Part shown: positions 15,015-26,817 of the stretch, one piece after another
Numbering within the stretch: position 1 is the stretch's first letter
Layout of the letters: the number at the start of each line of letters is the position of its first letter
Origin: Pseudomonadota bacterium
Lineage (GTDB): Bacteria; Pseudomonadota; Gammaproteobacteria; Burkholderiales; Burkholderiaceae_C
Direction of reading: 5' to 3'
Assembly: GCA_021819435.1 (NCBI GenBank)
Contig: JAKARB010000011.1
Span: 62,001-126,000 of the forward strand
Length of the DNA: 64,000 nt
Made by a program: the position numbers and the translations under genes
Notes under the pieces: model-generated
The model's database searches: none
The model's input: only the letters and a program-made list of their open reading frames with translations
What the model was told of the DNA's origin: nothing

Positions 15015-16052
15015 TCAAGCAGCCTTGACCCGAGCCTCGACTCGGCCAACGCTCGGTGCAACGCCGAACCACCTTTTGTAGGCTTGGGAAAAGCTGGACA
15101 GATCGCTGAAGCCCATGCGCTCAGCGATTTCGGTGAGCGTCAGCGTTTCGTCCATCAGCAAGCGATGGGCCTGACGGCTGCGAACCTCGGCCAGCAGCAT
15201 CCTGTAGGAGATGCCTTCATCTTGAAGCCGCCGTTTCAGTGTTCGGTCACTGAGGCCCAGTGCGCGTGCGGCCTGAGGCAAATCCGGCGCTGCGTGCAGA
15301 GGCGCCGCAGCCAGGTACTGGCGCAGGCATTCGCCGGTGCCCAGGCGGGCGCGGCGACGCTCCAACAACTCCTCGCAGGCCCGCTCGCACATGGCCACCG
15401 TGACAGGGTTGGCCTGGGGCAGCCGCAGCGTCAGCAGCTTGGGATCAAACGAGAGGCTGTTGCGGCTGGCGCCAAACTCAGGACGGATGCCAGCCATGCG
15501 CACGATTTCATCGAGGCCGCCAGCGCCGCGTTCGGACGGGTGCCGGAACGTGAAGCGAGACAAGGCGAATGCCGGCCCCAGCGTTTCCTTCATCAAGCGC
15601 GAGGCAGCTGTCACATCACGCTCCACCAGAAAGCGCTGAATGGCGGGCTCGACGTCGGGGGCTTCGAAATTCACGGTGTACATCCCGCCGTCCAGATCAC
15701 CCGTTATGCGGCAGAACGCAAACGTCAGGGGGATGAACCGCAAGGCCAACGCCAAGGCATCGCCAGCGGTCGCGCTGCTGATCAAGCCAAGGCCCCACAG
15801 CCCGTACGAGGCGAAGTTGTAGCGCATGCCCACTTCCAGACCCAGGCCAGGCTGCTGCCTGCATGCGCGGATGAGGTTGGCGACCACACTTAGCTCCTGG
15901 CTGGCCTCGAGTTCGATGGCCGGGTCCTCCAGATCGGCTTCTTTCAGGCGGGAGCGGGCCAGCATCCTGACGGCGTCCAGCCCACGCTCCTGGCCGAACT
16001 CGACCAGCAGCCGCACGCTCGCCGAACTGCGCTTGAAATCCCAAAAGTTCAT
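15015..16052 (-). CDS. AraC-family regulator with arabinose-binding-like N-terminal domain (VirS-like)
   Basis: A 345-residue transcription factor. Residues 1 to about 190 resemble the effector domain found in OruR/VirS-type AraC proteins; residues about 250-340 form the double helix-turn-helix: LPQAARALGLSDRTLKRRLQ and LTEIAERMGFSDLSSFSQAYKRWFG. It is transcribed divergently from the BVMO-esterase gene with 144 bases between the starts, the arrangement seen for virS and mymA in mycobacteria, so it very likely controls that gene. ATG 16052 is my choice; a GTG at 16076 would add eight residues and neither has a good ribosome-binding site. The effector is unknown, perhaps the ketone or alcohol substrate. 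Confidence 0.87.
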   Translation of the reverse strand: MNFWDFKRSSASVRLLVEFGQERGLDAVRMLARSRLKEADLEDPAIELEASQELSVVANLIRACRQQPGLGLEVGMRYNFASYGLWGLGLISSATAGDALALALRFIPLTFAFCRITGDLDGGMYTVNFEAPDVEPAIQRFLVERDVTAASRLMKETLGPAFALSRFTFRHPSERGAGGLDEIVRMAGIRPEFGASRNSLSFDPKLLTLRLPQANPVTVAMCERACEELLERRRARLGTGECLRQYLAAAPLHAAPDLPQAARALGLSDRTLKRRLQDEGISYRMLLAEVRSRQAHRLLMDETLTLTEIAERMGFSDLSSFSQAYKRWFGVAPSVGRVEARVKAA

Positions 16053-16090
16053 GGAGGGCTCATGAAGGGTGAACACCGATGTGTTTGGCC

Positions 16091-16103: not shown

Positions 16104-16196
16104 CTTTGACCTCCGTCAACATTCTCCGCGCTGGTGGATTTGCGCATGATTCGCGCTCGACGAGCGGACATTCGTCCCAAGCTGAGGCTTCAACAC

Positions 16197-18674
16197 ATGC
16201 ACCGCACAGGCACAGAGGGCAACGCCCCTTTCCACACCATCATCATCGGAACCGGCTTTGCTGGGGTGGGGATGGCCATCGCGCTCAAGAAGGCGGGCCT
16301 GGGCGATTTCCTCATCCTGGAAAAACAGAACGATGTCGGTGGCGTTTGGCGAGACAACACCTATCCAGGTGCTGCGTGCGACGTGCCCTCTCACCTGTAT
16401 TCGTTCTCGTTCGAGCCCAACCCGAACTGGTCCAGGGTGTTTGCTCGCCAGACCGAAATCCATCAATACCTCAAACACTGCGCCGAGAAATACGGCCTGT
16501 TGCCATCGATCCGCTTTGGCTGCGAGGTGGCGCAAGCCCGCTACCAAGAAGACCTCGCGCTGTGGAGCGTGACCCTGACCAGTGGTCAGGTCTTGCAAGC
16601 ACGCCATGTGGTCACGGCCACGGGGCAGCTCAGCCGCCCTGTCTATCCCAAGCTGGAGGGCATGGACAGCTTCCAGGGGCACGTCTGCCACTCCGCCCAC
16701 TGGGACCACAACCATGACATGACAGGCAAGCGCGTCGCGGTGATTGGCACGGGCGCATCGGCCATCCAGTTCGTGCCTGCCATCGCAGATCAGGTGAGCC
16801 AGTTGACGGTGTTTCAACGCTCTGCCGCCTACATCCTGCCGCGCCCGGATGGGCCATACGCTGGCTGGCGCAAGGCCTTGTTCAGGACGGTGCCCTGGAG
16901 CATGAAACTGCACCGGGCTCGCATCTATGCCCAATACGAAAGCCGTGCCATCGGCTTCACCCGCATCAAGGCCTTGATGGACCTGGCGGTGGGCATGCCC
17001 TTCAAGGCACTGCTTCACAAGCAGGTGCAAGACCCCGCGCTCCGTGCGCAACTGACGCCCGACTACCCCATCGGGTGCAAGCGCATCTTGCTGTCCAACG
17101 AGTACCTGGCCACCATGGCCAAGCCCAACGTGAAGCTGGTCACCCAGGGCATCCGCCGCATCACGGCCGATGGCATCGAGACGGTGGATGGGCAGCGCCA
17201 TCCTGCTGACGCGATCGTCTATGGCACGGGTTTCGCTGCCACGGAGTTCCTGGCGCCCATGACGATCACCGGCCGAGATGGCCTCGATCTCAATGAAGCA
17301 TGGCGCAAGGGCGCGCAAGCCTACCTGGGCATGACCGTGCCCGGCTTCCCCAACTTCTTCATGCTCTATGGCCCCAACACCAACCTGGGCCACAGCTCCA
17401 TCATCTACATGCTGGAGAGCCAGATCGCCCACGTGCTGCGATGCATGAAGGCCGCCGACCAAGCAGGCGCCAGCACCGTGGAGGTCGATGCGCAGCGCTA
17501 CACCAGCTTCAACCATGTCGTGCAAGAGCGCCTGCGGGCCACGGTGTGGCAGGGCTGCAAGAGCTGGTATGTGGACGCCAATGGGCACAACAGCACGAAC
17601 TGGCCTGGCTTCACCTTCGGCTACCGTTGGCTCACACGTTACTCATCGCTCAACGCCTACAACTTCAGCAAGCCAGATCGCCGCGGTGGGCAGGTGGTGC
17701 GGCACGCCGAGCCAAAGGGCATGGTGGAGTCGGCCAGCGCTGGCGTGCTGAGGGCTTTTCTGCGCGTGACGTTCAAGGCCTTGGTCAGGCCGCCTGTCGG
17801 GGTCGGTGTGCAGCGCTTCATCGTGAGCGCCCTGGCTCGGCTCATGCCCGCCGTAGGCGGCGTGCGCATCGAACACAGAGAGTTCGAGGGTTTGGCCACC
17901 GAAGTGATCTCACCTCGACAAAATCCAGGCAAGGGGCCTGTGGTGCTTTACTTGCACGGTGGCGGTTTTTGCGTCGGCAGCGCCCGGACCCACCGCAGCG
18001 TGACAACCCGCCTGGCTGCCTCTGGGATGGCGGTCTGTGTGCCGCAATACCGCCTGGCCCCGGAGCACCCTCAGCCCGCTGCCCTCGAAGACGCGCTGAC
18101 CTGCTACCGTCATTTGCTTGGCAGCGGTGTGGCCCCCCACCAAATCGTGGTCTGCGGTGACTCCGCTGGCGGCGGCCTGGCATTGAGCCTGGCGTTGAAG
18201 CTGCGTGAGGCGGGTGAACCTCTGCCAGCAGGGCTGATGCTGCTGTCGCCCTTCCTCGACACGAGCTTGTCGGGCGACACCATCCGAACGGCTTCGGCGC
18301 GCGACCCCATGCTCAATGTGGCCTGGCTGAAGCAAGCCGTGCGCTGGTATGCACCTCAGAACAGCCAACACCTTTTGGCGGCCGATCTGACAGGCTTGCC
18401 CCCCATGCTGATCCAGGTGGGTGACCAGGAGGTGCTGCAGTCTGACTCGACCCGATTGAGTGAGCTGGCAACGCGTTGCGGCGTGCCTTGCCGGCTGGAG
18501 GTGTACGCGGGCCGTTGGCATGTGTTCCAGCTTCAGGCGGCATTCCTCGACTCAGCAGTCAACGCCATAAACGGCTTGGCCTCCTTCGCCTTGCAAAGAA
18601 CGCATTGGCAACCTGCTGAGCACCTCAGGCATGAGGAAGAAGGCCATCCCAGCGGCAAGGCCGTGGTGCTCTGA
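16197..18674 (+). CDS. Fusion of Baeyer-Villiger-type flavin monooxygenase and HSL-family esterase
   Basis: An 825-residue two-enzyme chain. Residues 1 to about 500 are a class B flavoprotein monooxygenase: FAD-binding IIGTGFAGVG near residue 15, the BVMO fingerprint FxGxxxHxxxW as FQGHVCHSAHW starting at F159, and the NADPH-binding GTGASA at residue 184. Residues about 560-820 are a hormone-sensitive-lipase-type hydrolase: HGGGF at 587-591 (oxyanion hole), nucleophile Ser656 in GDSAGGG, acid region D743-Q-E745, and His775 in GRWHVF. All motifs needed for both activities are intact, so one polypeptide could turn a ketone into an ester and hydrolyse it. The ATG at 16197 has GAGG 9 bases upstream. 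There is no stop or frameshift between the halves. Substrate unknown. Confidence 0.9.
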   Translation: MHRTGTEGNAPFHTIIIGTGFAGVGMAIALKKAGLGDFLILEKQNDVGGVWRDNTYPGAACDVPSHLYSFSFEPNPNWSRVFARQTEIHQYLKHCAEKYGLLPSIRFGCEVAQARYQEDLALWSVTLTSGQVLQARHVVTATGQLSRPVYPKLEGMDSFQGHVCHSAHWDHNHDMTGKRVAVIGTGASAIQFVPAIADQVSQLTVFQRSAAYILPRPDGPYAGWRKALFRTVPWSMKLHRARIYAQYESRAIGFTRIKALMDLAVGMPFKALLHKQVQDPALRAQLTPDYPIGCKRILLSNEYLATMAKPNVKLVTQGIRRITADGIETVDGQRHPADAIVYGTGFAATEFLAPMTITGRDGLDLNEAWRKGAQAYLGMTVPGFPNFFMLYGPNTNLGHSSIIYMLESQIAHVLRCMKAADQAGASTVEVDAQRYTSFNHVVQERLRATVWQGCKSWYVDANGHNSTNWPGFTFGYRWLTRYSSLNAYNFSKPDRRGGQVVRHAEPKGMVESASAGVLRAFLRVTFKALVRPPVGVGVQRFIVSALARLMPAVGGVRIEHREFEGLATEVISPRQNPGKGPVVLYLHGGGFCVGSARTHRSVTTRLAASGMAVCVPQYRLAPEHPQPAALEDALTCYRHLLGSGVAPHQIVVCGDSAGGGLALSLALKLREAGEPLPAGLMLLSPFLDTSLSGDTIRTASARDPMLNVAWLKQAVRWYAPQNSQHLLAADLTGLPPMLIQVGDQEVLQSDSTRLSELATRCGVPCRLEVYAGRWHVFQLQAAFLDSAVNAINGLASFALQRTHWQPAEHLRHEEEGHPSGKAVVL

Positions 18675-18719: not shown

Positions 18720-19637
18720 GTGAACTCTCGCCGCTACCCTAACATCTCGCTCGAGCGCGCGCGCGCCATCAAGTCCACCTTCATGGCTGAGGGCGCGCTG
18801 TGCGCTGCCACGCTCTATGTGCCAAAGGACACGCCCCCTGACGCGCAACTGCCTGCCATCCTCGTGGTGGGCGGCTGGGGCAGCATCCAGATGGCCTTGA
18901 CCTCGTCGTTCACCTTGAGCTTCGTCGATGCCGGCTTCGCGGTGATGGAGTTCGACTACCCGGGCTGGGGCGACAGCGGCGGCTTCCCACGGCAAGGCAT
19001 CAACCCCTGGCGCAGAACGCGCGTGGCCGACACGGCACTGGCGCACCTGAAGTCGCAACAGCAAGTGCTGGCGCACGACATCACGCTGTGGGGCACTTCG
19101 TTCGGCGGCGGGCACGTGGTTGACTTGGCGACACAGCACCCCGAGCTCAAGGGCGCCATCGTTCAGGTGCCGATGCTCGACGGGCTGGCCGCGATGTTCG
19201 CCACACCGATCGGGCGGCTCGTGAAGATGATCGGCCTGGGCGTGCTGGATCTGATCAAGCCCGGCGCACCGATCTGCATTCCAACCTTGTCGCACGAGGG
19301 TGGGTTCGCCACCATGGACCGCGACGGTGGCTTGGAAGCCCTGGAGGCCGCACTGGCGGCGCACCCTGATCACAAGTACGACAACCGCGTGGCCGCCAGG
19401 TCGGTGCTGCCCTTGCCGCTGTATCGCCCTTGGGTGCGCCTGAAGGACGTGAAGATCCCGATGCTGATGATCGGCGCCACAGGCGACACGGTCGCGCCTT
19501 TCGTCTCGGACAAGGTCAAGCGCGTAGGCAACCCGAACGTGCAGGTGATCGAGGTCAACGCCAATCACTTCGACCCCTACTTTGACCCGCTGTTCCCAGA
19601 GATGTTGGCGCAGCAGCTGAAGTTCCTGCGCCGATGA
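18720..19637 (+). CDS. Alpha/beta hydrolase
   Basis: A 305-residue alpha/beta-hydrolase. The nucleophile elbow is GTSFGGG, the acid is in MIGATGDTVAP and the histidine in NANHFDPYF. The oxyanion region reads VVGGWGS, and YPGWGDSGG is a typical strand-5 segment. The fold resembles the dienelactone hydrolase/FrsA-like group rather than HSL. The start is GTG 18720 with GGAAG 7 bases upstream; ATG 18783 is the alternative. It lies 45 bases after the BVMO-esterase stop on the same strand, so the two are probably one operon. Likely an ester or lactone hydrolase; substrate unknown. Confidence 0.82.
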   Translation: MNSRRYPNISLERARAIKSTFMAEGALCAATLYVPKDTPPDAQLPAILVVGGWGSIQMALTSSFTLSFVDAGFAVMEFDYPGWGDSGGFPRQGINPWRRTRVADTALAHLKSQQQVLAHDITLWGTSFGGGHVVDLATQHPELKGAIVQVPMLDGLAAMFATPIGRLVKMIGLGVLDLIKPGAPICIPTLSHEGGFATMDRDGGLEALEAALAAHPDHKYDNRVAARSVLPLPLYRPWVRLKDVKIPMLMIGATGDTVAPFVSDKVKRVGNPNVQVIEVNANHFDPYFDPLFPEMLAQQLKFLRR

Positions 19638-19789
19638 CACGGTGATGGGGCCTGGTCGGCCCCGGTTCATCCGCTCGCATGGGGTGTCCCAGTGAGGGGA
19701 AATGCGTGGTACAACGCAGTACCAGCGCACCCTCTGCTGTGACACGGACCAAGCCCACGTGCGGGCCTGTTTGGGCTGCCGGCCGTTAC

Positions 19790-20710
19790 ATGAAGTTTGA
19801 ACCCACGCGCATTGCCGTCCCTGTGGACGATGCCAGTCTGTGTCTGCACCGATTCAAGCGAGCCGATGCGCATGGGCCAGCGGTGTTGATGCTGCACGGC
19901 ATGATGTCCAACGGCCGGGTCTTCTACAGCCATTCAGGCAAGGGCCTGGCGCCCTGGCTGGCTGAGCGTGGCTACGATGTGTTCGTGGCAGATCTGCGCG
20001 GCAAAGGCGGCAGCCAGCCGCTCATTGACCGGCATGCACGGCATGGTCAGAGCGAGATGATCGGCGTCGATCTGCCGGCCCTGCACGCCGCCGTCTTGCA
20101 CCATGCCCAGAGCAGTCAAGTGCACTGGGTGTCTCACTCTTGGGGCGGCGTGGTGATGAACAGCTGCCTGTTGCGCCATCCAGAACTCATTGCCCAGGTG
20201 GTCAGCGTGGTGCACTTCGCCGCCAAACGCAGTGTGAAGGTCCGCAACATGCGCAAGCGGATAGAAATCGACCTGATGTGGAATGGGGTACTCAAGCGCG
20301 TGACGCGTTGGATGGGCTACTTGCCCGCACGGCAACTGCGCATCGGTGCAGACAACGAGACCCGCAAAACGCATCGGCAGATTCAGTCATGGGTCCAGGC
20401 GGACCGCTGGGTGGACGATGACGACGGCTTCGACTATGGCCGCGCTGCGCAGCACACCAAGTTGCCGCCCACCCTGTACCTGGCTGCCGTCGACGATCCG
20501 TGCCGGGGGCATCCGGACGATGTGAAGCGCTTTCGTGCCGAGTCCGGCCCGCACCTGTCCCGTGTCCATGTGCTGTCAAAGCGGGGTGGCGCCATGCATG
20601 ACTATGACCACGTCAGCATCGTGACCCACCCGGATGCTGGCAATGACCAATTCAAGCTGGTGGAAGCCTGGCTGCAAGACCGCCACGACGCCGTGTCAGA
20701 GAAGGGCTGA
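19790..20710 (+). CDS. Alpha/beta hydrolase
   Basis: A 306-residue alpha/beta-hydrolase. LHGMMSNGRVF carries the oxyanion segment (GMM in place of GGG), DLRGKGGS follows, and the nucleophile is in SHSWGG, where the usual first Gly of GxSxG is replaced by Ser. AAVDDPC and the late MHDYDHVSI hold plausible acid and histidine residues. It is third in the plus-strand set after the BVMO fusion, with a 150-base gap that could hold its own promoter. ATG 19790 is the first start that gives a conserved-looking N-terminus. It ends 4 bases before the convergent SMP-30-like gene. Family clear, substrate unknown. Confidence 0.78.
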   Translation: MKFEPTRIAVPVDDASLCLHRFKRADAHGPAVLMLHGMMSNGRVFYSHSGKGLAPWLAERGYDVFVADLRGKGGSQPLIDRHARHGQSEMIGVDLPALHAAVLHHAQSSQVHWVSHSWGGVVMNSCLLRHPELIAQVVSVVHFAAKRSVKVRNMRKRIEIDLMWNGVLKRVTRWMGYLPARQLRIGADNETRKTHRQIQSWVQADRWVDDDDGFDYGRAAQHTKLPPTLYLAAVDDPCRGHPDDVKRFRAESGPHLSRVHVLSKRGGAMHDYDHVSIVTHPDAGNDQFKLVEAWLQDRHDAVSEKG

Positions 20711-20714
20711 CCTC

Positions 20715-21842
20715 TCACCGAGGCAGCTCAGCCTGTGCCGCCTTGAGTACGCCTAACGCTGGTGCGAGCAGGCTGTGGACGTACAAGGTGCCTTTCACCT
20801 CGGTGATGCCGGTCACTTCCGGGTAACGACCACTGGGGTCTTGCAGGTCTGCGAGGACCTGGCCCTGCTCGTTGAACGCCAGTGCATGGCCATAGGGCTT
20901 GGGCACGGGCAACAGGAAGTGGGGCAGACGGAAAGAAGCGGCACGCAAGAAGGGCCAGGGGGCCAGGGCGTCGGCCAGCACGCTGCGGGCTTTGGGCAGG
21001 CCGACCCAATACCGGCCCGAATCCCCCTTGGTCAGGTTATCGGGAAATGCCGGCAGGTTGTCCAGGACCACACGGGCCGTGCTGCCCGGCTCACGGATGT
21101 CGAGCTGCCTGGCTGACATGGGGATGCGCCAGATGCGGTAGCGTCCGGTCTCTGCCACCAACAGCGATCGGCCATCCGCTGCCAGCACGATGCCGTTGGC
21201 GAACACCAGACCCGTGGCGATGACCTCTGTGGTGTGCGTGGCGGGGTCATGCACCAGCACCCGGCCATTGCCCAGCTGCTCCAAGATCTCGGCCAGGCTC
21301 ACCGCCATCGGGTCGCCCCAGGGACCAGGTTTAAACCGGTGGCTGGCTTCGGTGAAGTAGATGCGGCCATCTGGTGCGACGGCCACGGCGTCGGCGAAGA
21401 CGATGGCATCGGTGTCCGACACCTTGTCGGTGATCAGGCTAACCTTGCCCTCGAGCGTCACACGCAGCAGGCCCTTGTAGGCATCGGCGGCGATGATGTT
21501 GCCATCGCGGTCGAAGTCGAAGCCCAACACGCGACCACCGGTGTCAGCCACTTGCTCCAGGCGCTGTCCATCGCCCTGCAGGCGCACGATGTGGCCGTTG
21601 TTCAGCGCGGTGTACATCAGCCCATCCGGGCCTTGTGCCACGTGTTCAGGGCCGGCCCCGGAGGGCAGCGGCAACAGGCGCACATCAACCAGGCGCTCGT
21701 TGCGCGCATAGGGGCCGCTGTAGCCCGGCGAAGGCTGCGGCTGCCAGGCCACCGGATGCACGCCAGTGGGCCAGAACAGCAGGTAGCCCATCAGGGCAGC
21801 GATGCCCAGGGTGACCATGGCCAAGAAGGGCTTGCTCATCAT
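20715..21842 (-). CDS. SMP-30/strictosidine-synthase-like beta-propeller protein
   Basis: A 375-residue protein with one N-terminal membrane segment or uncleaved signal (residues about 4-25, VTLGIAALMGYLLFWP) and a six-bladed beta-propeller. GPDGLMYTALNNG and APDGRIYFTEAS mark the SMP-30/gluconolactonase blades, and LPAFPDNLTKGDSGRYWVGL is typical of the strictosidine-synthase-like C-terminal region. Such proteins hydrolyse lactones or esters in many bacterial pathways. It is the last gene of the minus-strand BVMO operon, 28 bases after an SDR gene. A role as periplasmic-facing lactonase for the BVMO product is plausible but inferred. Two adjacent ATG codons (21842, 21839) are possible starts. 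Confidence 0.82.
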   Translation of the reverse strand: MMSKPFLAMVTLGIAALMGYLLFWPTGVHPVAWQPQPSPGYSGPYARNERLVDVRLLPLPSGAGPEHVAQGPDGLMYTALNNGHIVRLQGDGQRLEQVADTGGRVLGFDFDRDGNIIAADAYKGLLRVTLEGKVSLITDKVSDTDAIVFADAVAVAPDGRIYFTEASHRFKPGPWGDPMAVSLAEILEQLGNGRVLVHDPATHTTEVIATGLVFANGIVLAADGRSLLVAETGRYRIWRIPMSARQLDIREPGSTARVVLDNLPAFPDNLTKGDSGRYWVGLPKARSVLADALAPWPFLRAASFRLPHFLLPVPKPYGHALAFNEQGQVLADLQDPSGRYPEVTGITEVKGTLYVHSLLAPALGVLKAAQAELPR

Positions 21843-21870
21843 GTCGACGCAACGTTAAAACAAGGGAAGC

Positions 21871-22686
21871 TCAGGTGGTGGCGACGCGCCTAACGATGCG
21901 AGTAACGAGGCTGGGGGCCAAGCGCTGAAGGTGGACGAGCCAGCCTTCCTTGCCAGCGATCACCAAACGAGAACGACGTTGGGCCAGCCCATGGACGATC
22001 GCCTCGGCCACCCGCTGTGGCGGCATCGCATTGGACTGCCCCGGGTCCTGCTTGCCATGGGTACCTCCCTGTGCTGTGAGGGCATGCACCGATATGTCCG
22101 TGTTCACGAAGCCGGGGTAGGCCAGCATGATGTGCAGGCCCTGGTCCATGGTCTCTGTGCGCAGGGCCTCGAAGAAGCCGTGCAAGGCATGTTTCGCGGC
22201 GATGTAGGCCGAGCGATGCGGCGTGGCGATCAGGCCCAGCACACTCGCCACCGCCACGATGCTACCGTGCCCACGACGGATCATCTCCGGCGCCACCAGC
22301 TTGGTGAGCTGCAGCGGCCCGAAGTAGTTCACCGCCATGACCTTGCGATCGACCTCCAGGTTGGTCTCCAGCGCCATGGATCGGTGGGTGATGCCGGCGT
22401 TGTGCACCAGCACATCCACCGGCCACCCGCTTGACGTGATCCGCGCGCAGGCCTGCGCGACCTCCTCGCCATCGGTGAGATCGAATGTCTCGATGCGGCA
22501 TTGGACGTCGCTGCGCAAACGCTGGCACGCGGCGACCGTCTTGCCCAGGCCGAAGCGCTCGGATGCGGGTGCGGACAGGATGAGCCTGGCACCTCGTGCC
22601 GCAAAGGCCTTGGCCAACTCGGCACCAATGCCACGCGAGGCACCGGTGATCCAGACGACCTGCTTGTCAAATGAATCGTCGGCCAT
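21871..22686 (-). CDS. Short-chain dehydrogenase/reductase
   Basis: A 271-residue classical SDR. TGASRGIG is the nucleotide-binding glycine motif, NAG (HNAGITH) and the catalytic Ser (VASVLG) with YIAAK are present, so the enzyme should be active. The Rossmann-fold acidic/basic selectivity position is not decisive, though no Asp directly follows strand 2. The C-terminal 40 residues are basic and hydrophobic and may associate with the membrane, as in DHRS7-like SDRs. Its start is 1 base after the stop of the preceding SDR. Probable role: oxidation of a secondary alcohol or reduction of a ketone in the BVMO pathway. Confidence 0.88.
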   Translation of the reverse strand: MADDSFDKQVVWITGASRGIGAELAKAFAARGARLILSAPASERFGLGKTVAACQRLRSDVQCRIETFDLTDGEEVAQACARITSSGWPVDVLVHNAGITHRSMALETNLEVDRKVMAVNYFGPLQLTKLVAPEMIRRGHGSIVAVASVLGLIATPHRSAYIAAKHALHGFFEALRTETMDQGLHIMLAYPGFVNTDISVHALTAQGGTHGKQDPGQSNAMPPQRVAEAIVHGLAQRRSRLVIAGKEGWLVHLQRLAPSLVTRIVRRVATT

Positions 22687-22687
22687 G

Positions 22688-23578
22688 TCAGTCTTCCTTG
22701 TGCCGGGCGGTCAAGGCGTGGCCCATGCTGCTGACGCCAAAAGACCGACCAATCGCCTGTACTTCTGCTTCGACCTTGGGCACGGCCACGCGGGCCTTGC
22801 GCTTGACGAAGAACTCCCACACCGGGCTCATGAAGAGCTGACGCACCGCCCCGATGGGAGCCAGCGCTGCGGGCACATAGGTCTTGCGTTGTCGGCAGTT
22901 CACGGCCTTGACCATGCACTTCGCGCAGTCCTCCACCGACGTGATGACGTTGAAGGGCCAAGGCAGTTGCTTGAGTGCGTCGTTGAACGAGGCCAGTTCG
23001 CGTCGCTGGTCACGCACCAGGTCGGTGTCGATCCAAGCTGGGTAAACCACACCGACGTCCACGCCCTTGTGGGCCACCTCCAGGCGCAAGGCGTTGGCGA
23101 AGTGCTCCACACCGATCTTTGATGCGGCATAGGCAGAGGTTCCCGGCATGGACTTGAGGGCAGCGGCAGAGGAGACCAGCAGGAAATAGCCTTGGCTGCT
23201 GGTGATGGCGGGCAAGGTAGCGCTCACCGTCCGGATGACGCCGATCAGGTTCACCTCCACCGTCTTGACAAGGGCTTCCACCGGGCTGATTGCCACGGTG
23301 CCATTGCTGGCGATGCCTGCATTGGCGATGACCACATCGAGCCCACCAAGATGGGCCAGCGCAGCCGTCACGGCGCGCTGCACCGAGTTCTCATCGGTCA
23401 CGTCACATTCAGCCCAGAAATGGCGGGGACCCAGCTCTTGCACGAGGGCAGCCAGCCGCTCGCGCTCCAGGCCCACCAGGGCCAACGTGGCCCCCTGAGC
23501 CGCAAGTTGTCTGGCGGTCTCGGCGCCAATGCCTCTGGCGGCGCCAGTGATCAGCACGCGCTGTCCCTGTGACTTCAT
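22688..23578 (-). CDS. Short-chain dehydrogenase/reductase
   Basis: A 296-residue SDR with TGAARGIG, IANAGIASN, a serine in LVSSAAAL and YAASK (SAYAASKIGVEHF). Its ATG at 23578 overlaps the TGA of the esterase gene (ATGA), so it is translationally coupled. The C-terminal extension of about 50 residues after the substrate loop (SPVWEFFVKRKARVAVPKVE) is longer than in minimal SDRs and resembles the SadH-type SDR of mymA operons. It differs clearly from the next SDR, so the two are not a recent duplication. Confidence 0.88.
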   Translation of the reverse strand: MKSQGQRVLITGAARGIGAETARQLAAQGATLALVGLERERLAALVQELGPRHFWAECDVTDENSVQRAVTAALAHLGGLDVVIANAGIASNGTVAISPVEALVKTVEVNLIGVIRTVSATLPAITSSQGYFLLVSSAAALKSMPGTSAYAASKIGVEHFANALRLEVAHKGVDVGVVYPAWIDTDLVRDQRRELASFNDALKQLPWPFNVITSVEDCAKCMVKAVNCRQRKTYVPAALAPIGAVRQLFMSPVWEFFVKRKARVAVPKVEAEVQAIGRSFGVSSMGHALTARHKED

Positions 23579-24606
23579 GGTCGATTCCCTGATGATCGAA
23601 CGGCCAGCGCTCGCCATGTGTGAGCGACTTGCGAGACCGCTGCGCGTGACTCACGGTGAACGCTGGCCAGGTTGATGAATGCATGGCCCAGGCGAGAGAA
23701 GTGCAGATGCTGAACCGGGATGCCCGCGCGGCGGAGGTGGTCCACGTAGGCCTGACCTTCGTCCTTCAGCATGTCGTAGCCGGCCGTGGCAACCAGTGCC
23801 GGGGCCATCCCCGGCGGCACACTGGCCAGCAAGGGCGAAACCCGCGCATCTGCGGCATGCGCTTGAACATCCCGCAGGTAAGCACCGTAGAACGTTGCTC
23901 TTTCAGTGCGATCAAGGAAGTAGCCTGCGCCGTACCGCGTGTGCGATGGCCTCGTTTGCGTCAGGTCCGTCCCTGGGTAGATCAGCAGTTGTGCTGCGAC
24001 ATGCAGGCCTTCCTGAGCGAGGCAAGCCGCTGTGACAGCAGCCAAGTTGGCGCCTGCACTGTCTCCGCCCAGCGCCAGGCCTGTCGCCCCCCAAGCATCA
24101 AGCTGCTTACACGCCCAGTGTGCGCTGGCCAGCGCGTCATCCACTGCGGCAGGAAATGGCGCTTGCGGTGCCAACCGATAGGCGACCGCTAGCAGGGGCA
24201 TGCCGCTGCCTTCGCACAGCAGGCGGCATGCATCGTCATGGGTGTCCAGGTCACCCATGATGAACCCACCGCCGTGGAAGAACACCGTCAGCGGTGCCCT
24301 GCTCTCGGGCGACTTGGGGCGATAAAGCCGCGCAGCCAACGTGCCGTTTTCGGTGGGAATGGACAGGTCTTGCGTGGAGCCAATGTCAAAGCCGACCCGA
24401 AAGCTGGCCATGTCTGCACAAAACCGCTCGCGCGCGGCCACGGCCGAACCGCCGCGAGTCCCCAGGCCCCTCAGCCTGCGCAGCACCTGCAGGAAAGGCG
24501 AGAGTTCATCGGCAACCTGAGCATGTGGCGTTGCCAAGTGGGGGCCCGCATCCAGCAATCGGTCCAGACCACGAAGAAATCGCCCTTTGAAGGAAGACGC
24601 GCTCAT
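23575..24606 (-). CDS. HSL-family alpha/beta hydrolase (esterase)
   Basis: A 343-residue carboxylesterase of the hormone-sensitive-lipase family. FFHGGGFIMGD is the oxyanion motif, LGGDSAGANLA holds the nucleophile, AGYDMLKDEG the catalytic Asp and RLGHAFINL the His, so the triad is complete. It overlaps both neighbours by ATGA: its ATG at 24606 with the BVMO stop, its stop with the SDR start. This strict coupling to a BVMO argues that it hydrolyses the ester made by that enzyme, as LipR does beside MymA in mycobacteria. It is a stand-alone counterpart of the C-terminal half of the fusion at 16197. Confidence 0.92.
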   Translation of the reverse strand: MSASSFKGRFLRGLDRLLDAGPHLATPHAQVADELSPFLQVLRRLRGLGTRGGSAVAARERFCADMASFRVGFDIGSTQDLSIPTENGTLAARLYRPKSPESRAPLTVFFHGGGFIMGDLDTHDDACRLLCEGSGMPLLAVAYRLAPQAPFPAAVDDALASAHWACKQLDAWGATGLALGGDSAGANLAAVTAACLAQEGLHVAAQLLIYPGTDLTQTRPSHTRYGAGYFLDRTERATFYGAYLRDVQAHAADARVSPLLASVPPGMAPALVATAGYDMLKDEGQAYVDHLRRAGIPVQHLHFSRLGHAFINLASVHRESRAAVSQVAHTWRALAVRSSGNRP

Positions 24607-26135
24607 GGGGAAGCCTCTGCAACGCGGGATGCCGACGTGCTTGGCGAGAGACGCCGCCACGCATAGTCTGACTCCACGACCTTGCCAGCTACGCGCGCAT
24701 AGCTGAAGGTGAAACCCGGCCAGATGCTGGAGTTCCGCCCCGTTTCATCCAAGTACCAACTCTCGCAGCCGCCCGCCACCCACACCGTGCCATGCATCAT
24801 TTTCTCGATCCGGGCGAGGAAGCGCTGTTGCGCCGAAGCCGTGGGCTCAACCGCGTCATAGCCCTTGGCCTGCGCCAGCTTGATCACACCAACGATGTGC
24901 TTGGCCTGTGCCTCCAGCATGTACACCACGGACGTGTGTCCCAACCCGATGTTGGGGCCGTGCAGCAGATACAGGTTGGGAAAACCATGAACCGTGGTGC
25001 CCATGTAGGCCTGGGGACTGCCTTGCCAGGCCGACGCCAGGGAGCGGCCCTTGCCGTCATGGATCAGGTGCGTGAAAGGCAGGTCCTTGGTCTGGAAGCC
25101 GGTGCCGTGGATGATCGTGTCCACAGCCCTGAAGACACCATCCTGCCCGATGACGCCGTCCGCTGTGACCTGCTTGACGCCCTCGGTGACCACTTCGACA
25201 TTCGCCTGCGCGAGCGCCGGGTAATAGGTGTTCGAGATCAAGATCCGCTTGCACCCCAAGGTGTAGTCGGGCGTCAGCTTCTGGCGCAAGACCGGGTCTT
25301 TCACCGCAGCATGCATGTGCCTGAGCGCTTTGGCTTGTGCGCGCGCCATCAGCCATGGGTGCAAGAAACCCAGCGCCAAGGCTTCACGGTGGACATAGAC
25401 CCGGGCCCGCGCCAGCTTTTGCAGCCAAGGCAGCTTGCGAAACACCGTTCGGGCCGTTGCCGAAATGGGGCCGTCGTGGCGAGGCAAGACCCACGGGGGC
25501 GTGCGCTGGAACACGTGCATTCGCGCCACGTCCGGTTGGATGGCCGGAATGAACTGCAAAGCGGAGGCACCCGTGCCCACGACAGCGATGCGTCTGCCTT
25601 TGGGATTGAAGCCTTGGGGCCAGTTGGCTGAATGGAAGACCTCGCCCTTGAATGCCTGGGCACCCGGAAGCGTCGGAATGAGCGGGTCGCTCAGTGAGCC
25701 GAAAGCGCCCACCAAGTGCTGCGCGCGCACTTCACCTCGATTGGTCTGAATGCGCCAAGTGGCGCTGGCCTCGTCCCACCAGGCTTTTTGAACCTCATGG
25801 CGCAGCCTCACGTGAGACATCAACCCCAATTCCAGCGCGCAGCGCTTCAGGTAGCTGAGGATCTCGGCCTGGGGCGAAAAGGTTCGGCTCCAGTCAGGAT
25901 TGGGAGCAAAGGAAAACGAATACAGATGCGACTGCACATCGCAAGCGCACCCGGGGTAACTGTTGTCGCGCCACACGCCACCCACACCGACTGCTCGCTC
26001 AAGGATGATGAAGTCACGCACACCCGCCTGCTTCAGGTAGTGGGCTGTGGCCAGTCCGCCAAAACCAGATCCGACGATGGCGACCTGGACGGACACAGGC
26101 CCGGTTGAGGTGGGGCAAACGTTGTTCAAGGCCAT
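24603..26135 (-). CDS. Baeyer-Villiger-type flavin monooxygenase
   Basis: A 510-residue class B flavoprotein monooxygenase. IVGSGFGGLA binds FAD, the BVMO fingerprint is present as FKGEVFHSANW, and VVGTGASALQF binds NADPH. GVGGVWRDNSYPGCACDV and SHLYSFSFAPNPDWS are very close to the matching segments of the fusion protein at 16197, so the two are paralogues. ATG 26135 is the first start close to the FAD motif; the frame stays open upstream across the intergenic region. First gene of a five-gene operon, transcribed away from a TetR gene with an operator-like palindrome between them. Confidence 0.92.
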   Translation of the reverse strand: MALNNVCPTSTGPVSVQVAIVGSGFGGLATAHYLKQAGVRDFIILERAVGVGGVWRDNSYPGCACDVQSHLYSFSFAPNPDWSRTFSPQAEILSYLKRCALELGLMSHVRLRHEVQKAWWDEASATWRIQTNRGEVRAQHLVGAFGSLSDPLIPTLPGAQAFKGEVFHSANWPQGFNPKGRRIAVVGTGASALQFIPAIQPDVARMHVFQRTPPWVLPRHDGPISATARTVFRKLPWLQKLARARVYVHREALALGFLHPWLMARAQAKALRHMHAAVKDPVLRQKLTPDYTLGCKRILISNTYYPALAQANVEVVTEGVKQVTADGVIGQDGVFRAVDTIIHGTGFQTKDLPFTHLIHDGKGRSLASAWQGSPQAYMGTTVHGFPNLYLLHGPNIGLGHTSVVYMLEAQAKHIVGVIKLAQAKGYDAVEPTASAQQRFLARIEKMMHGTVWVAGGCESWYLDETGRNSSIWPGFTFSYARVAGKVVESDYAWRRLSPSTSASRVAEASP

Positions 26136-26155
26136 GGCGCGACGGCAGTGGAAGT

Positions 26156-26171
26156 GGTACAAAATTGTACC
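26156..26171. promoter_or_regulatory. Candidate TetR operator between BVMO operon and tetR
   Basis: GGTACAA and TTGTACC form perfect 7-base arms around a 2-base centre in the 79-base gap between the divergent starts of the BVMO (26135) and the TetR gene (26215). The position, length and AT-rich surroundings fit an autoregulated TetR operator controlling both directions. Confidence 0.6.
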
Positions 26172-26214
26172 CAAATAATTCAAAGACCGCTTCACTGCTC
26201 TTCCCCTCGAATCA

Positions 26215-26817
26215 ATGGCCTTGACGAAAGATGGCATGTCGCCGCGCAGTCGCCTCATCGCTGGCATGGCCAAGGTGTTGGAGCAACGTGCGTTGTCCGA
26301 GCTGTACGCCGACGATGTGGTGAAAGAGGCTGGGGTGTCCAAGCGGACCTTCTATCAGCACTTCGCCAACAAGGAAGACTGCTTTCTGGCGCTGTACCGC
26401 GAAAACAGTGCGCGGGTGCTGAACGTTCTTCAGGAAGCCTCGGGGGCCGCAGGCCTCTCAGCCCTGGAACGCATCCAGCTAGGCGCCAAGGCTTACCTGC
26501 TGTTCATGCAGAGCCAGTCTGCGCTGATGAAGCGGCTCTACATCGACATCCTGTATCTGGGCACGGAGGGCATGAAGGCCAAGCGCGAGGTGCTGCAGCA
26601 ATTCGCGGATGTGCTGCTCGCTGCGTATGAAGCGGAACGCGTGCTGGTGCCATCGCTGCCGCCCCTGGACCCCGAACTGGTGCTGGCGATCGTGGCCGGC
26701 ATCAACGAAATGATCCTGTTCAAGATCGAAGACGGGCATGCAGACCGCTTGAGTGACCTGGAGAGCGTGAGCCAACGGCTGATCATGGGTCAACTGCTCC
26801 TGAATCAGACCGGCTAG
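26215..26817 (+). CDS. TetR-family regulator
   Basis: A 200-residue TetR-type repressor. The helix-turn-helix lies at about residues 15-60 (SELYADDVVKEAGVSKRTFYQHFANKEDCFLALY). The C-terminal ligand domain is helical with no recognised signature. It diverges from the BVMO-esterase-SDR operon with a perfect inverted repeat in the shared intergenic region, so local autoregulation and control of that operon are likely. The ligand is unknown, probably a pathway substrate or product. Confidence 0.88.
   Translation: MALTKDGMSPRSRLIAGMAKVLEQRALSELYADDVVKEAGVSKRTFYQHFANKEDCFLALYRENSARVLNVLQEASGAAGLSALERIQLGAKAYLLFMQSQSALMKRLYIDILYLGTEGMKAKREVLQQFADVLLAAYEAERVLVPSLPPLDPELVLAIVAGINEMILFKIEDGHADRLSDLESVSQRLIMGQLLLNQTG

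Follow-up and report, generated by a model that had tools for sequence, protein, structure and literature searches.

Baeyer-Villiger monooxygenases (BVMOs) and esterases form the core of the proposed subterminal routes of alkane and ketone breakdown, as far as the available text of two reports sets these routes out (PMC6304351, PMC12753306). In the sad cluster of NyZ410, according to the accessible part of the report, the conversion of ketone to ester to alcohol is the work of separate proteins encoded in one cluster, with the BVMO SadD making an ester from an aliphatic ketone and the esterases SadA and SadB hydrolyzing it, and cascades of alcohol dehydrogenase, BVMO, and esterase have been built by hand (PMC12753306); the same chemistry is proposed, in the text available, for Thalassolituus oleivorans (PMC6304351). 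The mymA locus, in the accessible portions of its descriptions, places the VirS regulator beside the BVMO gene MymA, followed by the esterase gene LipR, all unfused, and is ascribed a role in envelope lipids (PMC10272862, PMC9044951). The BVMO of Pseudomonas fluorescens DSM 50106, which acts on aliphatic open-chain ketones in the available text (PMC5407406), likely belongs to the same type of pathway. All three systems are likened to the locus analyzed here by description. VirS is a regulator of the AraC type and LipR an esterase of the HSL type, and the P. fluorescens BVMO gene has an esterase gene for a neighbor, the two being separate.

In contrast to the separate sad proteins and the unfused mymA genes, the gene at 16197..18674 on the forward strand of the window (the whole stretch of 64,000 nucleotides that was analyzed) encodes a BVMO and an esterase in one chain of 825 residues. 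In the open-license literature, outside of which most subscription journals lie, we found no natural fusion of BVMO and esterase described, and the gene names PA2097 and PA2098 were not found among the matches listed from that literature. Where the word fusion does occur, it denotes, in the accessible text, engineered constructs, the natural styrene monooxygenase-reductase, or fusion in general (PMC9141793, PMC6058054, PMC6165268, PMC13101518). We consider it probable, on the grounds of the sequence comparisons detailed below, that the fused protein is a bifunctional catabolic enzyme in which the BVMO would make an ester that the tethered esterase would hydrolyze, and that the fusion arose once, with several later losses.

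Anatomy of the fused protein

One uninterrupted reading frame, 825 codons long and closed by one terminal stop, encodes, in this order, a type I BVMO (about residues 11-490), a joint of 55 residues, and an HSL-family esterase (about 546-800). The longer alternative frame of 846 aa, from the GTG at 16134, is less likely to mark the true start than 16197, because the relatives L021-L026 align from residue 1. The original prediction, that a complete class B flavin monooxygenase and a complete HSL-type esterase are joined in one chain, is borne out both by the motifs and by the domain search that it had proposed, in which Pfam places Pyr_redox_3 (15-210) and FMO-like (16-216), both above their cut-offs, in the same chain as Abhydrolase_3 (583-778, E 1.1e-49, above cut-off). 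Every motif it listed can be read directly from the translation: GTGFAG (18-23), FQGHVCHSAHWD (159-170), and GTGASA (184-189) in the BVMO half, and HGGGF (587-591), GDSAG (654-658), and His775 in the esterase half. The frame runs unbroken between the halves, as had been stated, and with the joint open in 66 of the best 80 relatives (of at least 563), there is little reason to suspect that codons 500-560 hide a stop or a frameshift.

The BVMO half (residues 1-490; 16197..17666, forward strand) holds the FAD and NADPH Rossmann folds and is best matched by steroid, cyclohexanone, and phenylacetone monooxygenases. Type I BVMOs are defined by two Rossmann motifs that flank the fingerprint FxGxxxHxxxW(P/D), and this arrangement is found here, the fingerprint FxGxxxHxxxWD occupying residues 159-170 (16671..16706, forward strand). 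In an alignment of 70 fused proteins, His165 and Trp169 are present in all 70, Gly161 in 67, Phe159 in 66, and Asp170 in 65. Two Rossmann motifs and the fingerprint are also named as marks of BVMOs in the available text of one report (PMC6304351). The invariant residues of this half (70/70) are G18, G20, W51, D62, H165, W169, G184, G186, K295, and R296, with G23 of the first Rossmann motif present in 69 of 70. Arg296 (17082..17084, forward strand) is a likely candidate for the active-site arginine, and R296 and D62, matched by pattern, may correspond to Arg337 and Asp66 of PAMO.

An AlphaFold2 model built from the alignment of 70 fused relatives has a mean pLDDT of 82.3 and a pTM of 0.81, the loops of the BVMO half with pLDDT below 50 including 392-398 and 456-467. 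With the whole fused model as query, the 50 PDB matches listed, out of 1943, all belong to BVMOs, at TM-scores of 0.73-0.81 by target length. Steroid and cyclohexanone monooxygenases (PDB 4ap3, 5m0z) resemble the N-terminal half in fold and in fingerprints but have no esterase domain, and identity among the structural matches listed is about 25-31%. The NCBIfam equivalog model for neopentalenolactone/pentalenolactone D synthase (PtlE) gives 215.6 bits against a cut-off of 1100. Fold and motifs place the BVMO half in the type I class, and it is predicted to convert a ketone to an ester with NADPH.

The esterase half (residues 546-800; 17832..18596, forward strand) matches EstD11, Est8, and others, and combines the features of the HSL (family IV), or Abhydrolase_3, group: HGG(G/A), GDSAG, and a catalytic histidine are all present. 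The oxyanion-hole motif HGGG lies at residues 587-590 (17955..17966, forward strand), residue 590 being alanine in 59 of the 70 fused proteins; the nucleophile motif GDSAG, with Ser656, at 654-658 (18156..18170, forward strand); and the catalytic base His775 at 18519..18521 on the same strand. The catalytic acid, for which the original prediction gave no candidate, is most likely Glu745 (18429..18431, forward strand), because it aligns with the glutamate of EstD11. That enzyme (PDB 7at0) aligns over 267 residues of the esterase half, with HGGG, GDSAG, Glu, and His in register, but is a stand-alone esterase without a BVMO. The NCBIfam model for the HSL esterase subfamily with the GESAG motif is missed, at 222.5 bits against a curated cut-off of 430. 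H587, G588, G589, G654-G658, E745, D750, and H775 are invariant in 70/70 fused proteins; the key residues of both halves are intact in all 70, as had been claimed for this one protein.

Both halves are under purifying selection. In 10 fused genes of the Aquabacterium clade (45 pairs for each segment), dN/dS has a median of 0.121 in the BVMO half, 0.301 in the joint, and 0.185 in the esterase half. Identity to the window protein averages 69% in the BVMO half and 57% in the esterase half, the lower value of the latter being a point against the bifunctional reading. We strongly disfavor the view that Aquabacterium is in the course of discarding the esterase half as a relic: its repeated loss and a dN/dS above that of the BVMO half are what one would expect of a relic, but its Ser, Glu, and His are invariant in 70/70 fused proteins and its dN/dS of 0.185 is far below 1.

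The joint (residues 491-545; 17667..17831, forward strand) begins with a variable stretch, 491-510, with a mean identity of 27%, and continues into a better conserved one, 511-545, at 49%; a helix predicted at 509-529 leads into the esterase. Its length varies between 37 and 49 residues over positions 490-530, and E511, L522, F526, and P532 are invariant. These features bear on a version of the bifunctional reading to which we give a slightly better than even chance, namely, that nothing is transferred between the sites: the halves would share a chain and a promoter and act independently, with the fusion serving to fix their ratio at 1:1 or to secure their co-expression while the ester diffuses freely. 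The variability of the joint in length and sequence agrees with such independence, as do the loss of the esterase half with retention of the BVMO and the existence of unfused neighboring pairs, both described below; the maintenance of the fusion across several families does not, and the helix with its four invariant residues perhaps goes beyond the needs of a mere tether.

Distribution and genomic context

A scan of named genomes yielded at least 590 pattern matches, at least 563 of them relatives, of which the best 80 were kept; because rank depended on how well a candidate matched the whole fusion, the sample is short of unfused genes from other genera. The gene is fused in one frame in 66 of these 80 loci (L080 and L091 being cut by a contig end) and ends after the BVMO half in 14. 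L101 (65%) and L015 (56%) are examples of unfused genes from elsewhere. By record title, the fused members among the best 80 belong to Burkholderia, Paraburkholderia, Ralstonia, Cupriavidus, Massilia, Paracidovorax, Curvibacter, Pseudomonas, Solimonas, Hydrocarboniphaga, Rhizobium, and the group of the window itself, and include records titled complete, those of Cupriavidus necator (CP074390) and Pseudomonas protegens FD6. An artefact of assembly or annotation, a practically negligible prospect, was rejected, with 66 of the best 80 relatives fused in the same frame, complete-titled records included.

In even draws of genomes, the fusion is found in 1 of 398 from the phylum, namely, its own genome (E <= 1e-180), in 2 of 399 from the order, its own and G628 (two candidates having been scored per genome in both draws), and in 6 of 200 from the family, its own included, which fits the earlier statement that the pair is usually separate. 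Within the genus, the fusion is present in 10 of 42 genomes. The genus is most likely Aquabacterium, because several of its genomes have BVMO halves that do not differ from those of loci named as Aquabacterium.

Among plasmid records, 54 of the 112 that matched cover 80% or more of the query at a single site, and 19 of the 20 listed are from Burkholderia glumae. The 19 listed plasmid records that are annotated name the fusion only 'alpha/beta hydrolase fold domain-containing protein', a hydrolase name that renders the BVMO half invisible to name searches there. On bglu_2p, a plasmid of B. glumae, the operon with the fusion is bounded by IS66 genes on one side and a phage-type integrase gene on the other, and mercury-resistance genes follow farther out; being plasmid-borne and so flanked, this operon may be mobile.

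Upstream of the fusion in the window, on the reverse strand (15015..16076), lies a divergent gene for an AraC-family regulator with an Arabinose_bd N-terminal domain, which likely controls the fusion and probably switches it on. Of the 66 fused loci among the best 80, 45 have an AraC gene within the flanking sequence retrieved, upstream and divergent in 43 of the 45. Directly downstream, at 18720..19637 on the forward strand, is a third hydrolase, of the alpha/beta type, weakly like the UilS lactonase, which is its nearest NCBIfam model (91 bits against a cut-off of 400). This gene occurs in 9/9 fused loci of the Aquabacterium clade examined; at E 1e-30, six of the 66 fused loci have it, all six in that clade, and weaker matches, 29-31% identical, are seen in L032 and L097. 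Another alpha/beta hydrolase gene on the same strand (19679..20710, start uncertain) is possibly part of the same transcription unit. With a further hydrolase for the BVMO product perhaps present in the operon (18720-19637), and HSL esterases being broad in specificity, the esterase half might instead work on another ester, for example, one of the growth substrate; we regard this as improbable, given that the pairing of BVMO with esterase recurs in unfused neighbors and, in the accessible text, in the sad and mymA loci (PMC12753306, PMC10272862).

Of the 66 fused loci (best 80), 36 are flanked by a gene for a GMC alcohol oxidoreductase, directly upstream of the fusion in 32, directly downstream in 3, and apart in 1, with none at E 1e-30 in the flanks of the other 30, and coniferyl-aldehyde-type dehydrogenase genes are found in the flanks of 11. 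The B. glumae operon consists of a divergent AraC gene, a coniferyl aldehyde dehydrogenase, a GMC oxidoreductase, and, last, the fusion, the latter two genes overlapping by 14 bases. The adjacency of the GMC gene suggests a route from alcohol to ketone to ester to acid plus alcohol, and the context of the fused loci as a whole fits a chain in which the GMC enzyme makes the ketone, the BVMO the ester, and the esterase an acid and an alcohol, the latter passing via the aldehyde to a second acid. Neither a GMC nor an aldehyde dehydrogenase gene is present beside the fusion in the window, so this pathway context is borrowed from other loci; measured against clusters of the sad or mymA type, the B. 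glumae locus has both genes and the window has neither beside the fusion. The fusion is probably part of a secondary-alcohol or ketone route, that is, of subterminal oxidation.

Origin of the fusion and loss of the esterase half

Adjacent but unfused BVMO and esterase genes recur around the fusion family. A second pair lies in the window itself (23575-26342, reverse strand), its esterase 27-28% identical to that of the fusion, and a third in the same genome (contig C8:287502-289867, reverse strand; L002/L007), at 49% identity for the BVMO and 37-38% for the esterase. The second pair belongs to a stretch on the reverse strand, 20715-26342, within 8 kb of the fusion. After the unfused BVMO gene come those for the HSL esterase, for two dehydrogenases of the short-chain type, and for a protein resembling strictosidine synthase; the stretch may be a ketone/alcohol cluster.

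When 105 BVMO halves are placed in one tree, those of fused proteins form a group within which unfused ones are nested, at 11 state changes, 5 of them forced by starred branches. Outside this clade (fork support 99) branch the BVMOs L102-L104, from the same class as the window but another family, each with a separate esterase ORF beside the BVMO gene; this ORF, 41-43% identical to the esterase half of the window protein, starts between 17 bases before and 5 bases after the BVMO stop, depending on the start chosen. In the genus of these three, the BVMO match ends with the BVMO half in 21 of 25 genomes, the esterase having been inspected in three. The branch of L015, an unfused BVMO that stands alone, falls between the fused clade and L102-L104. 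In the esterase tree, the L102-L104 esterases group with stand-alone ones (support 94), and the fused row L086 adjoins them (support 78); in the free tree of 107 rows, L086 is separated from the remaining fused rows and 2 changes are required, and a single clade of fused esterases (73 of 107 rows) is not rejected (AU p 0.573). Fusion of neighboring BVMO and esterase genes, probably just once, would be the simplest history, although it is not proven; the pre-fusion pair itself is not pinned down, because L015 intervenes and the L102-L104 esterases sit with the stand-alone ones.

The Aquabacterium clade has 10 fused rows, intermixed with 11 unfused ones. A careful clade tree has 9 state changes over all 35 rows (8-9 in bootstrap trees), 5 of them forced by starred branches, and 38 of 500 label shuffles reached as few. 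A single common loss of the esterase half was rejected for the 11 unfused clade rows (AU p 1.1e-8) and for a 9-row core of them (AU p 5e-6), in tests whose groups follow the fused or unfused state and which were both run after the tree had been seen, the core being chosen after it as well. The esterase half was removed in place more than once in the clade of the window.

Nine unfused clade rows have a BVMO half 82.7-89% identical to that of the window protein and no esterase half. A stretch resembling AY(H/R/N)F is common to the unfused proteins, which stop 3-26 residues past it (in L122, about 45), and their C-terminal tails differ between lineages, that of L083 being hidden by an earlier stop. 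This pattern could in part reflect the transfer of a gene that was unfused beforehand, but separate losses are favored because the tails differ. An in-frame TAG interrupts the unfused Aquabacterium BVMO gene after 68 codons in L083 (8001-9482) and L114, perhaps the sign of a dying gene or an assembly error. Besides metagenome assemblies, unfused genes are also found in strain-titled records, those of A. parvum B6, A. lacunae KMB7, and A. commune DSM 11901. A relocated esterase half was not found in 10 genomes with an unfused close relative (two of them 75% and 86% complete): the best esterase match by score in these is 40-45% identical (a shorter match in G590 reaches 48%), much as in genomes with the fusion, the search having also covered 8 genomes that carry the fusion and 2 others with an unfused gene at 67-68%.

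The AraC gene is kept in 13 of the 14 unfused loci among the best 80 and the downstream hydrolase gene in 11, where, with the BVMO frame intact, it lies between a 4-base overlap and 85 bases past the stop; of the other three, L093 ends 93 bases past the stop, and L059 and L092 have none nearby. This hydrolase may take over from the lost esterase half. Because the esterase half has been lost repeatedly, the fusion is not essential in this clade, and the nine unfused BVMO rows count against a strict coupling of the two sites.

Two proposed pathway steps in one chain

The idea that the chain runs two successive pathway steps, put forward in the original prediction, has become the natural reading, because both halves are complete and under selection and BVMO and esterase genes adjoin one another, unfused, elsewhere. 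Under the proposed mechanism, the N-terminal BVMO, with FAD, NADPH, and O2, would insert an oxygen beside the carbonyl, turning a ketone into an ester or lactone, and the C-terminal esterase, held on a joint of about 55 residues, would split this product into an acid and an alcohol; in Aquabacterium, where the esterase half appears to have been lost several times, the downstream hydrolase may assume the second step.

A more ambitious version of the two-step reading, conceivable but rather doubtful, is a family of enzymes in which the BVMO hands its ester directly to the tethered esterase, the tether being undone repeatedly after a lactonase-like hydrolase joined the operon. If this were true, the ester (or lactone) would hardly leave the protein, in a family so far undescribed, and a single genus would offer a natural experiment in which a second hydrolase made the tether dispensable and different C-terminal tails were left behind. 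A natural one-chain BVMO-esterase is, moreover, a ready-made scaffold, and the fused genes of Aquabacterium, together with unfused ones whose BVMO halves are 82.7-89% identical to that of the window protein, allow a direct test of what is gained by fusing consecutive enzymes.
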